From an uncultured Flavobacteriales bacterium (lineage in GTDB: Bacteria; Bacteroidota; Bacteroidia; Flavobacteriales; CALTNV01): a stretch of DNA of 6,432 bases. The position numbers and the translations under genes were made by a program. Position 1 is the stretch's first letter; every line of letters begins with the position of its first letter. The stretch covers positions 1 through 6,432 of the forward strand of contig CALTNV010000123.1 of NCBI GenBank assembly GCA_943845485.1, in the 5' to 3' direction. The notes under the pieces were generated by a model that saw only the letters and a list, made by a program, of their open reading frames with translations, did not search any database and was not told where the DNA came from. Positions 2,179 through 4,866 of the stretch are shown piece after piece.

Positions 2179-4812
2179 ATGAGTACAGTTATTAAAGAAC
2201 AAAAGATATATAACAACCAAAATAGATTTAAGAAGGTTCTTAAATCTATTTTGGTTGTTTTTTTATGCATAAGTGTTTTTCTAGTTGTTACTTCATTAGT
2301 AATTTCAAAAGTTTATAAATCAGAAATAAAAAGCTTTGTAATTACACAAGTTGAAGAGCTTATAAAAGCTGATATAGATGTTGATAAAATAGAATTGTCC
2401 CTTTTTGAAAAATTTCCAAAAGTTTCCTTATCCTTTAGTAATTTTGATGTTGTTTCTTCATATTACAAAAAGAAAGATACTTTATTAATAGGTCGAAAAT
2501 TATTTTTTGAATTTGATATGATTGATGTTTTACAACATAATTATCAAATTAACAGTTTAGCTTTTGAAGATGCATTTATCAATTTTAAAATCAACCAACA
2601 AGGTGTTTCAAATTTTGACATCTTTAAAACTAAACTCAAATCAGACTCATCAAGTTCAATTCTATTGTCATTAGATAATGTTCAGTTTAAAAATATTGAT
2701 ATTGTTTACAAAGATGATAAACAAGGTGTTTTCTTTAATACAACTTTAAAGGAGGCTAAATTCAAAGGGGATTTCAATAAATTAGATTTAGATGTAAAAG
2801 TTTATAATGACTTTTATATTCATAATTTAACTTTTAATGACTTTGTTCTAGAAGAAAAAAATCTAGTTTTTGATGGTGTTTTTCATCTTGATAAAATAAA
2901 TAAAGTTCTTAGTCTTTCAGATAATAGTTTATCAATTTCAGATTTTAATTTTTTAGTAAATGGAGAGGTCGATTATTCTTATGAAGATAAATTTAACTTG
3001 AATATATCTTGTACTACATCCAATGTTAATATTTCTTCTGTAGAGATGATTGACAAAGAGTTTTATGATGAATACCTAAAGCTTTATAAGCTTAATGGAA
3101 CTGTAGATTTAGATGCTACTATTGTTGGTTTTATGTCTCGGTCTGAGTTTCCAACTCTAAATTTAGGATTTAATGTGTATGATGCAGGTTTTCAATTGTT
3201 GGAATTACCTTTTAACGATGTTGGAATAAAAGGTATTCTTCAGTTAGATGAAAACATTAATCAATTAAAAGTTTTATCATCATCATTAAGTTTATATGAT
3301 GATGATATTGTTTTAAATGGTGTATATTCATTTAAGGATGAAAATAACGTAAAATTTAATCTTCAATCTGGTCTTTCAAAATTTTCATCTTCCGAAATCT
3401 TAAAATTACTAAGTACTGATTCATTGAATATGACTTTTAATGGAAATACTGATCTAGATATTCAAGGGGTTGTTGATTTTGAGGCTGACAAAATCTTTCT
3501 TAAATCATTAATTGGTTATGTACAAACACGAGATGGTATTCTTAATATTGGAAGTAATAATCGTTTAGAGTTAGAGAAAATTCAGGTTGATTTCAATCAA
3601 AATGGTAGTTTGCATTTTAATCTAACTTCACTGTATAACAATGAAAATTGTAGTGCTAATGTTTTAGTGCAAAATTTTAAGGATTATTTTAATGGTAAGT
3701 CATCTTTTATTTATTCTAAAGGAAAAATATTTTTAGATAAATTTTTGATTCCAGTTAATGATAATTCAAGTTCAAAACATGATGGTCTTATTATTCCTGA
3801 TTTTCTGAATGCAGATGTTGATTTAAAGATTAATGAAGTTTTATTTTCCTCTGTTACTTTGAGCAATTTTAAATTACAAGGAAAAATTTCCCCTAATAAT
3901 ATTAATATTTCTGATTATCGATTTAATATTTTTGATGGATTAGTAGTTGGAAATGCAAAGGTGAATCAATCAAATGTTTTTGTTCATACAGATATTTCTG
4001 ATGTGGATTTTCAAACGTTATTTAAAGCTTTTGATAATTTTGATCAACAAAATATAACAAGTGAACATATAACTGGTGTTTGTGATTTAGTGTTTGATAC
4101 TAAAATGCCTTTTAATTCTTCTGATATGAAGTCTGAAGTGATTGTTGTTGGTGATTTTAAAATTAAGAACGGTCAGTTGCTCCAAGTTCCCATTATAGAT
4201 GATATAGTCAGGTATTTAGATAAGAATATGATTACTAAAAGTGTACTTGATATGAAGCATTTGAAAGCTGTTTCTAAAGAAATTTATTTTGATGAGATAA
4301 AAAACACATTTTTGATTAAAAATGGAGGGTTACTTATTCCTGATTTTACTATTAAAAGCTCTGTTTTAGATGTTAACTTAGAAGGTGAACAAAAATTATC
4401 TGGTTATTTTAATTACAAAATGAATTTTAGACTAGCAGAAATAGTTGGTGATTCTCAAGATGATGATAACGAGTTTGGGGTAGTAGAAGATGATGGTACA
4501 GGGATGAGAGTTTTTATGAAGGTTTTTGGTACACCAGATAGTGTCACTTTTGAAATGGATAAGAAAACTAAGAAAAGTTATTCAAAAAATAATAATAAAA
4601 CAGAAAAGAAGATTTTGTCTGATATAATAAAATCTGAATTGCCATTTTTAAATAAAAGTAAAAAGAAAAATGATGCTGATAAAGATGGGGTTATTAATAG
4701 AAGTTCATCTGAAAAAGTCGAGTTTCAATTTGAAGAAGAGAGAGATGAAGTAATTATTAAGGAAGAAAAAATATCAAATGATGCAGAGTTTCAGTTTGAA
4801 ATAGAAGAGTAG
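2179..4812 (+). CDS. AsmA/TamB-like inner-membrane-anchored envelope protein
   Basis: This 877-residue protein begins with a short basic cytoplasmic segment and one membrane anchor (about residues 21-45), so the bulk should be periplasmic. Residues 47-95 (beginning YKSEIKSFV and including ELSLFEKFPKVSLSFSNF) resemble the AsmA N-terminus. The middle is a long stretch of alternating beta-type sequence. An AsmA-like C-terminal domain (about 575-795) includes FNIFDGLVVGNAKV, GDFKIKNGQLLQVP and a closing VFGTPDSVTFEMD. Family members are linked to outer-membrane biogenesis and possibly bridge-like lipid transport; applying that here is inference. Residues 795-877 form a charged tail, lysine-rich then acidic, with a DADKDGV segment (832-838) and two EFQFE copies (848-852, 870-874). 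Codons 12-27 form a terminator-like palindrome. The gene lies 65 bases after the synthase gene, with no clear promoter between. ATG 2179 is the only ATG that includes the anchor. Confidence 0.85.
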   Translation: MSTVIKEQKIYNNQNRFKKVLKSILVVFLCISVFLVVTSLVISKVYKSEIKSFVITQVEELIKADIDVDKIELSLFEKFPKVSLSFSNFDVVSSYYKKKDTLLIGRKLFFEFDMIDVLQHNYQINSLAFEDAFINFKINQQGVSNFDIFKTKLKSDSSSSILLSLDNVQFKNIDIVYKDDKQGVFFNTTLKEAKFKGDFNKLDLDVKVYNDFYIHNLTFNDFVLEEKNLVFDGVFHLDKINKVLSLSDNSLSISDFNFLVNGEVDYSYEDKFNLNISCTTSNVNISSVEMIDKEFYDEYLKLYKLNGTVDLDATIVGFMSRSEFPTLNLGFNVYDAGFQLLELPFNDVGIKGILQLDENINQLKVLSSSLSLYDDDIVLNGVYSFKDENNVKFNLQSGLSKFSSSEILKLLSTDSLNMTFNGNTDLDIQGVVDFEADKIFLKSLIGYVQTRDGILNIGSNNRLELEKIQVDFNQNGSLHFNLTSLYNNENCSANVLVQNFKDYFNGKSSFIYSKGKIFLDKFLIPVNDNSSSKHDGLIIPDFLNADVDLKINEVLFSSVTLSNFKLQGKISPNNINISDYRFNIFDGLVVGNAKVNQSNVFVHTDISDVDFQTLFKAFDNFDQQNITSEHITGVCDLVFDTKMPFNSSDMKSEVIVVGDFKIKNGQLLQVPIIDDIVRYLDKNMITKSVLDMKHLKAVSKEIYFDEIKNTFLIKNGGLLIPDFTIKSSVLDVNLEGEQKLSGYFNYKMNFRLAEIVGDSQDDDNEFGVVEDDGTGMRVFMKVFGTPDSVTFEMDKKTKKSYSKNNNKTEKKILSDIIKSELPFLNKSKKKNDADKDGVINRSSSEKVEFQFEEERDEVIIKEEKISNDAEFQFEIEE
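2212..2264 (+). terminator. Terminator-shaped 48-bp near-perfect palindrome plus T7, inside the AsmA-like gene
   Basis: Arms at 2212-2234 and 2237-2259 pair at all 23 positions around a central GG (2235-2236), checked base by base. The run of T at 2258-2264 follows directly, giving the hairpin-plus-T-tract shape of an intrinsic terminator on the plus strand. On the minus strand the hairpin would be followed by ATATAT, so it is one-sided. Each arm has only 5 G/C of 23, but the length compensates. It lies 33 bases after the AsmA-like ATG and 98 bases after the synthase stop. It is therefore in coding sequence (codons 12-27), where it could act as an attenuator or a leaky end for the upstream transcript. 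The structure is certain; termination function is inferred. Confidence 0.6.
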
Positions 4813-4823
4813 TTATTAATTAA

Positions 4824-4866
4824 GCACAAAAAAACCGAGATGTTTATATCTCGGTTTTTTTTGTGC
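4824..4866. terminator. Bidirectional intrinsic terminator between convergent genes
   Basis: A 7-bp stem (CCGAGAT 4835-4841 with ATCTCGG 4848-4854) closes a 6-base loop. It is flanked by A7 on the left (4828-4834) and T8 on the right (4855-4862), so each strand reads a G/C-containing hairpin followed by a T-run. The outer GCAC (4824-4827) and GTGC (4863-4866) extend the pairing further. It sits 11 bases after the AsmA-like stop and 14 bases after the facing lipoprotein stop, ideally placed to end both transcripts. Confidence 0.93.

Follow-up and report, generated by a model that had tools for sequence, protein, structure and literature searches.

A perfect coding-region palindrome of probable template-switch origin at the start of an AsmA-like gene in a Flavobacteriales bacterium

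Results

Gene content and anatomy of the locus

The stretch of DNA analysed here, hereafter the window, comprises 6,432 nucleotides from an uncultured Flavobacteriales bacterium and has a G+C content of 27%. It carries genes for an LD-carboxypeptidase, a UPF0102 protein (which we take to be YraN), a pseudouridine synthase (1232–2113, + strand), an 877-aa AsmA-like protein (2179–4812, + strand), a small opposite-strand ORF whose product is presumably lipoprotein-like, a DUF2061 protein and a PAPS reductase. The AsmA label comes from an NCBIfam match that is weak, scoring 21 bits where the cut-off is 412, and from the PF05170/PF05359 families that Pfam assigns to several distant homologues; a Pfam search with the 877-aa protein itself gave no match. 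Among PAPS reductase loci, the best 80 of 218 are 55–64% identical and come mostly from Flavobacterium, which suggests a flavobacterium-like source. One contig with a flavobacterial-type PAPS reductase (L030) lies in a metagenome-assembled genome record titled Klebsiella pneumoniae, probably a mislabelled or mixed bin.

Within the 5′ coding region of the AsmA-like gene lies a perfect inverted repeat (2212–2234 and 2237–2259, + strand) in which 23 of 23 arm positions form Watson–Crick pairs around a GG spacer (2235–2236) that is unpaired in the DNA palindrome. The 48 bp correspond exactly to codons 12–27 of the ORF, the axis falling where codon 19 meets codon 20; both the full pairing and the 16-codon span had been read correctly in an earlier note on this DNA. 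The left arm spans codons 12–18 and runs two bases into codon 19 (NNQNRFK K). The right arm includes two bases from codon 20 and then codons 21–27 in full (V LKSILVV), where the membrane anchor starts. The same note placed a run of seven T directly after the palindrome. The seven are present (2258–2264, + strand), but the first two belong to the right arm and five lie outside it. The corresponding U-run extends to nt 86 of the gene. Such a run is unremarkable by itself, as the + strand of the window has five runs of at least seven T.

Two further inverted repeats flank the AsmA-like gene. The gap preceding it contains a perfect 14-bp palindrome (ACTTAAATTTAAGT, 2147–2160), which is chance-sized for this composition and is the best, though weak, pairing partner of the left arm. 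Between the gene and the converging small ORF lies a terminator-like hairpin with an arm of 14 (4828–4861), with good terminator d-scores on both strands (+25 and +18 at the best trimming).

The palindrome is far from chance

In 40 windows generated from a first-order Markov model, the best arm measured 7–14 and none exceeded 14; an independent-base estimate gives about 5e-8 expected arms of at least 23 per window. Since a coding sequence is constrained by its protein, we also resampled positions 2179–2301 under the codon usage of the window itself, leaving the protein unchanged. The longest arm in 2000 such trials was 16. The minimum free energy of the native sequence, −36.3 kcal/mol, lies below all of 1000 codon-preserving recodings (mean −15.7, sd 4.0, lowest −30.9 kcal/mol), and folding of the 122-nt start region gave z = −6.2. 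Given the 16 residues and the window's codon usage, the probability of perfect pairing is 1.8e-6, so the residues alone are insufficient to explain the palindrome. Together, the Markov windows and the codon-preserving resampling rule out a chance origin, in agreement with the earlier note, which had judged one very unlikely and had suggested folding against recoded controls as a check.

For comparison we surveyed perfect repeats with spacers of up to 10 in 173 fetched loci (2.83 Mb), a non-random sample in which many loci represent the same neighbourhood in different Flavobacterium. Arms of at least 14 occurred 78 times, 76 of them outside and two inside ORFs of at least 100 aa. These two have arms of 19 (L032) and 15 (in the pth gene of L122), and a coding-region arm of 23 therefore exceeds the range found in this survey. 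The former (L032:20090–20128) is a perfect palindrome in a Flavobacterium succinicans ORF with repeated QLPTAEL-like motifs, and looks like an in-frame palindromic repeat element.

Longer perfect repeats, with arms of 24–29, were found in intergenic positions (L024:17459–17511, L039:18271–18329, L035:17936–17992, L042:18196–18250, L027:18268–18320 and L018:18998–19048). They start with CTTTTT and are spaced much alike from the PAPS reductase gene. Their flanks resemble one another, with CTATAT preceding the repeat and GATRCCG or a close variant following it, and their cores differ. Perhaps they represent one site at which both arms change together.

The nearest orthologues cannot encode the pairing

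A protein search yielded 29 matches among the 7992 candidates sharing most words with the AsmA-like protein. One of them (P0001) is nearly identical, differing by a single residue (V782I) and keeping, at the protein level, all 16 palindrome residues. This record bears on whether the repeat is an assembly or amplification artefact. Palindromes can arise as amplification chimeras; here, the reading frame is continuous across both sides, and it is on the strength of the separate record with its full set of palindrome residues that we reject an artefact, which we regard as very improbable.

The nearest orthologues, P0002 and P0003, are 56–57% identical to the AsmA-like protein. From their protein sequences we computed, over all synonymous codings of the first 60 codons, the longest possible arm of perfect pairs with a spacer of at most 6. 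This bound is 11 bp for both, as against 23 in the window, which indicates that the palindrome is not ancestral. For five more distant homologues the same bound is 11–17 bp. These bounds place the origin of the repeat within this lineage and show that residues changed along with it: judged from proteins, it is an inverted repeat improved in one lineage and less perfect in its relatives. The earlier note had proposed comparing orthologues for kept arm pairing, and in the two nearest ones that pairing cannot even be encoded.

At the DNA level, more distant loci have a best arm of 4–10 in the first 150 nt. This figure covers the 24 of 33 loci with an ORF of more than 500 aa (the other nine were dropped), taking the longest ORF in each with orthology unchecked; the start in L098 looks internal. 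A protein scan of genome contigs with the AsmA-like protein found no close DNA relative. Alignment searches of four genomes, of 395 same-order genomes and of the families of G008 (one genome), G228 and G057 (52 genomes, common to these last two) returned distant homologues only, and viral contigs contained neither an AsmA relative nor an identical copy of a 20-base segment of the arm.

The transcript carries a terminator-like hairpin

As RNA, the palindrome folds into 22 pairs with a free energy of −27.3 kcal/mol, and this stable hairpin is followed directly by the U-run, as in an intrinsic terminator. On the + strand, the d-score at four trimmings was +12, +21, +28 and −0.3, and on the − strand −38 and −12 at two trimmings; the result depends on trimming. 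A looser pattern scan flagged the palindrome on both strands and did not list the hairpin at 4828–4861. No other terminator-like site appeared in a pattern scan from the synthase stop (2113) to the palindrome. A known Rfam family can be rejected: Rfam 15 gave nine matches with E up to 1 in 2000–2400, none near its gathering score.

These features raise the possibility of a selected intrinsic terminator or attenuator, which would either end the transcript of the upstream genes or pass only transcripts whose first codons are quickly translated. Its anatomy speaks for it, with a hairpin and U-run in the sense orientation, no other terminator-like site after the upstream stop, and codons that fit the hairpin beyond what the residues require (the 1.8e-6 above). 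Its position does so as well. Intrinsic (Rho-independent) terminators are described within coding regions (PMC4824070), and the palindrome shares with them a hairpin and U-run no more than 100 nt from the start codon, the interval in which the E. coli terminator of that study kept most of its efficiency. It differs in that its stem consists of 22 mostly A-U pairs and is a predicted terminator only.

Against selection stands the absence of the pairing at 56–57% identity and in the 24 more distant loci, as well as the fact that residues changed along with codons. Translational gating fares no better. In E. coli, translation cost a terminator placed 30 bp after the start codon only about 10% of its efficiency (PMC4824070), so the simple expectation for the palindrome, by analogy, is partial and largely ungated termination. 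A translation-dependent attenuator would also have a mutually exclusive alternative hairpin, and we found no competing antiterminator: the strongest pairing between the left arm and upstream sequence reaches −7.7 kcal/mol as against −27.3 kcal/mol for the hairpin. Nor do the orthologue proteins or the 24 distant loci reveal conservation or covariation. In leader-peptide attenuators of the trp/pyrBI type, the hairpin overlaps translated codons, and the palindrome resembles them in this respect; it differs in lacking a detectable antiterminator and a short leader ORF, and in that both of its arms encode the protein itself.

Measured against these results, the attenuator or terminator proposed in the earlier note keeps its anatomy, including a d-score that is positive on the + strand only, and loses the conservation and the antiterminator that a selected device would be expected to have. 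The idea that translation holds the hairpin open is weakened by the small loss in the E. coli construct (PMC4824070). That the palindrome serves as the functional end of the upstream synthase transcript agrees with the hairpin, the U-run and its standing as the sole terminator-like site after the stop, and disagrees with the lack of conserved pairing. Partial transcript loss at the palindrome is nevertheless plausible from this analysis, and the palindrome, which looks like an intrinsic terminator, may partly act as one.

The long perfect RNA duplex might instead be cut by RNase III, separating or destabilising the downstream mRNA. Its length fits substrates of this enzyme. Nothing else about the site is specific to such cleavage, for which the U-run would be superfluous, and the duplex is absent in the orthologues; we regard this role as improbable.

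Hairpins of this kind do not appear to be a general device at gene starts. In 2089 ORFs, the first 150 nt contained three terminator-like hairpins in sense orientation (one being the pth hairpin described below) and three antisense, and the remainder of the ORFs six sense and 14 antisense, giving sense rates of 9.6 per Mb in the first 150 nt and 3.5 per Mb in the rest. Because sense and antisense counts at gene starts are equal, we see no sign of general hairpin use there, and a general excess is unsupported.

A covarying hairpin within the pth coding sequence of related flavobacteria

A hairpin of 13–16 pairs lies about 73 nt into the pth (peptidyl-tRNA hydrolase) genes of a flavobacterial genome group. 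It was first seen at L122:5067–5102, in a genuine pth gene (TIGR00447 above cut-off) preceded by two ORFs that we presume to be prs and rplY. We collected 34 further loci (L174–L207) as best matches from the 355 of 395 genomes with a match; the hairpin lies at L174:1574–1609 (+ strand) and at homologous places in other loci of L175–L207. Two loci (L188, L189) were not found by motif and one (L205) was read out of register, leaving 31 for counts of retention and d-score.

All but at most three pairs are kept in 27 of the 31 loci; the hairpin is absent or weak in L185, L187, L195 and L202. Covariation was assessed in 30 loci (28 distinct rows), also leaving out L186, which has a 6-base deletion, and keeping the hairpin-less L185, L187 and L202. 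Across the 28 rows, 90.2% of cells are paired as against 83.1% (sd 0.9) in shuffles, and 33 cells are changed on both sides as against 11.6 (sd 3.0). The covariation score is 0.332, compared with 0.213 for shuffled and at most 0.127 for slid alignments, with the caveat that related rows can exceed shuffles without structure. Two other measures are hardly or not above shuffles: eight pairs with double changes, which 13 of 500 shuffles equalled or exceeded, and 23 further pair types, for which 164 of 500 did so. Around the stem end, at least seven T occur in 10 nt in 23 of the 31 loci. Trimming the stem gives a positive d-score in 13 of 31 loci, and the full stem does so in 2 of 31. No Rfam family reached its gathering score over the hairpin in the four loci searched.

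As the pth hairpin is kept with covariation, coding hairpins can last in this order, held over long times by selection or by repeated homogenisation of the arms. That related flavobacteria can keep such a structure in a 5′ coding region lends the selected terminator or attenuator a further argument. The palindrome of the window shows no such history of upkeep. A selected device fails the tests applied here, and we consider it rather unlikely.

A probable template switch at an older quasi-palindrome

A mutational origin was not among the options of the earlier note, and the comparison of orthologous proteins favours it. We propose that the palindrome is the lineage-specific product of a DNA polymerase template switch, now present in the transcript as a −27 kcal/mol hairpin with a U-run; we hold this to be the probable reading, with some reserve. 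Judging from the orthologue proteins, the ancestor would have carried an FK-(R/K)-(I/V)-(F/L)K motif where the basic lead meets the membrane anchor, and in A+T-rich codons this motif would form a short inverted repeat of about 6–8 bp. A replicating polymerase would have stalled at this seed, taken one arm as template and added the reverse complement of about 15–17 more bases, with the anchor likelier than the lead to have been the source, with NNQNR tolerated in the lead and the frame left open. The transcript thereby gains the hairpin of 22 pairs that folding displays, followed by the U-run. Some of the transcripts entering the gene may then end there, lowering AsmA-like expression, an outcome to which we give slightly less than even credence. 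The stalling and copying concern origin and the transcript loss concerns function, and the two are mutually compatible.

The presumed seed comprises codons 17–22 (FKKVLK; 2227–2244, + strand), which align without gaps in MAFFT to FKRIFK in both orthologues. FKRIFK was recoded 5000 times per orthologue with the window's usage. An arm of at least 6 arose exactly at the homologous axis in 62% of codings for one and 67% for the other, compared with 0.2% of 3000 control axes of the window's protein. Because this axis ranks first of 320 for repeat-proneness in each of P0002 and P0003, the result points to arm copying at an older quasi-palindrome. The ancestor thus probably had, as predicted from proteins, a short inverted repeat at the present axis.

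Which arm was copied is less clear. Both have diverged from the orthologues at 56–57% identity, and codon usage hints at the left one: among 8-codon stretches, the left half (codons 12–19) lies at the 6th percentile of codon preference and the right half at the 47th, the left containing unusual codons (AAC AAC, AAG AAG) and the right ordinary ones, with raw codon likelihoods only 0.9 nats apart. The left arm also lacks the basic residues found there in the orthologues. On account of its odder codons and missing basic residues, the left arm is weakly indicated as the copy.

An alternative source of an in-frame palindrome is insertion of a mobile element, for which Rickettsia palindromic elements provide the model. 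The palindrome indeed lies in frame in a coding region, and in the MAFFT alignment one or two residues have no partner directly ahead of the left arm, where there may have been a very small insertion. The N-terminus, on the other hand, is no longer than in the orthologues (the KVY motif ends at residue 46 here and at 50 and 51 there), no second copy was seen in the window among 20 of 47 direct repeat families listed, and the viral contigs lacked an exact match to the 20-base arm stretch. An inserted element therefore seems improbable, about as much so as an RNase III site.

Template switching has precedents in other systems. It is known from E. coli (PMC7202029), has been proposed for RNA-gene hairpins (PMC8794818), and has been held responsible for a small surplus of short repeats in the coding sequences of prokaryotes (Ladoukakis and Eyre-Walker, cited in PMC4060949). 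In yeast, it lengthens coding repeats from short seeds with changes in neighbouring residues, as in UTP5, where the repeat grew from 4 to 11 bp (PMC8604942). The palindrome shares with quasipalindrome template-switch mutations (the Ripley model, with the thyA hotspot of E. coli and the yeast coding genes of PMC8604942) an inferred central seed, perfect arms in a coding region and neighbouring residue changes. It differs in that its arm of 23 is longer than the 7–16 tabulated there, and in that the ancestor is reconstructed here from proteins. Nematomorph mitochondrial genes likewise contain perfect repeats with both arms translated within the gene, for which template switching is among the mechanisms proposed (PMC6649704). 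Those palindromes are numerous, measure as much as 284 bp and tend to be centred on the same points in different species, whereas the present case is a single 48-bp repeat in a bacterium.

Against a single switch, copying 15–17 bases gives an arm beyond every yeast case tabulated (7–16 bp, PMC8604942), and at 56–57% identity several successive changes, or selection, could also have built the repeat.

Discussion

The palindrome at the start of this AsmA-like gene is real, far from chance and lineage-specific. If it arose as proposed, it cautions that a strong hairpin in a coding region need not be a selected regulator.

A broader scenario can be drawn, which we offer as quite unlikely speculation: that Flavobacteriales repeatedly place terminator-like hairpins in the first 100–120 coding nucleotides of a downstream gene, setting its expression relative to the preceding gene. 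The pth hairpin would then be an old, covarying example and the palindrome a newborn one from a single template switch, with A-rich basic leads and T-rich anchors supplying the pairing and the U-run.

If the template-switch origin proposed here is true, a single slip of the replication machinery is enough to place a transcription-stop hairpin in a functioning gene while leaving its protein intact, which would explain a possible proneness of membrane-protein gene starts in A+T-rich genomes. With the pth hairpin as a structure upheld by selection or repeated arm homogenisation, the origin and the upkeep of coding hairpins would become testable within one order.
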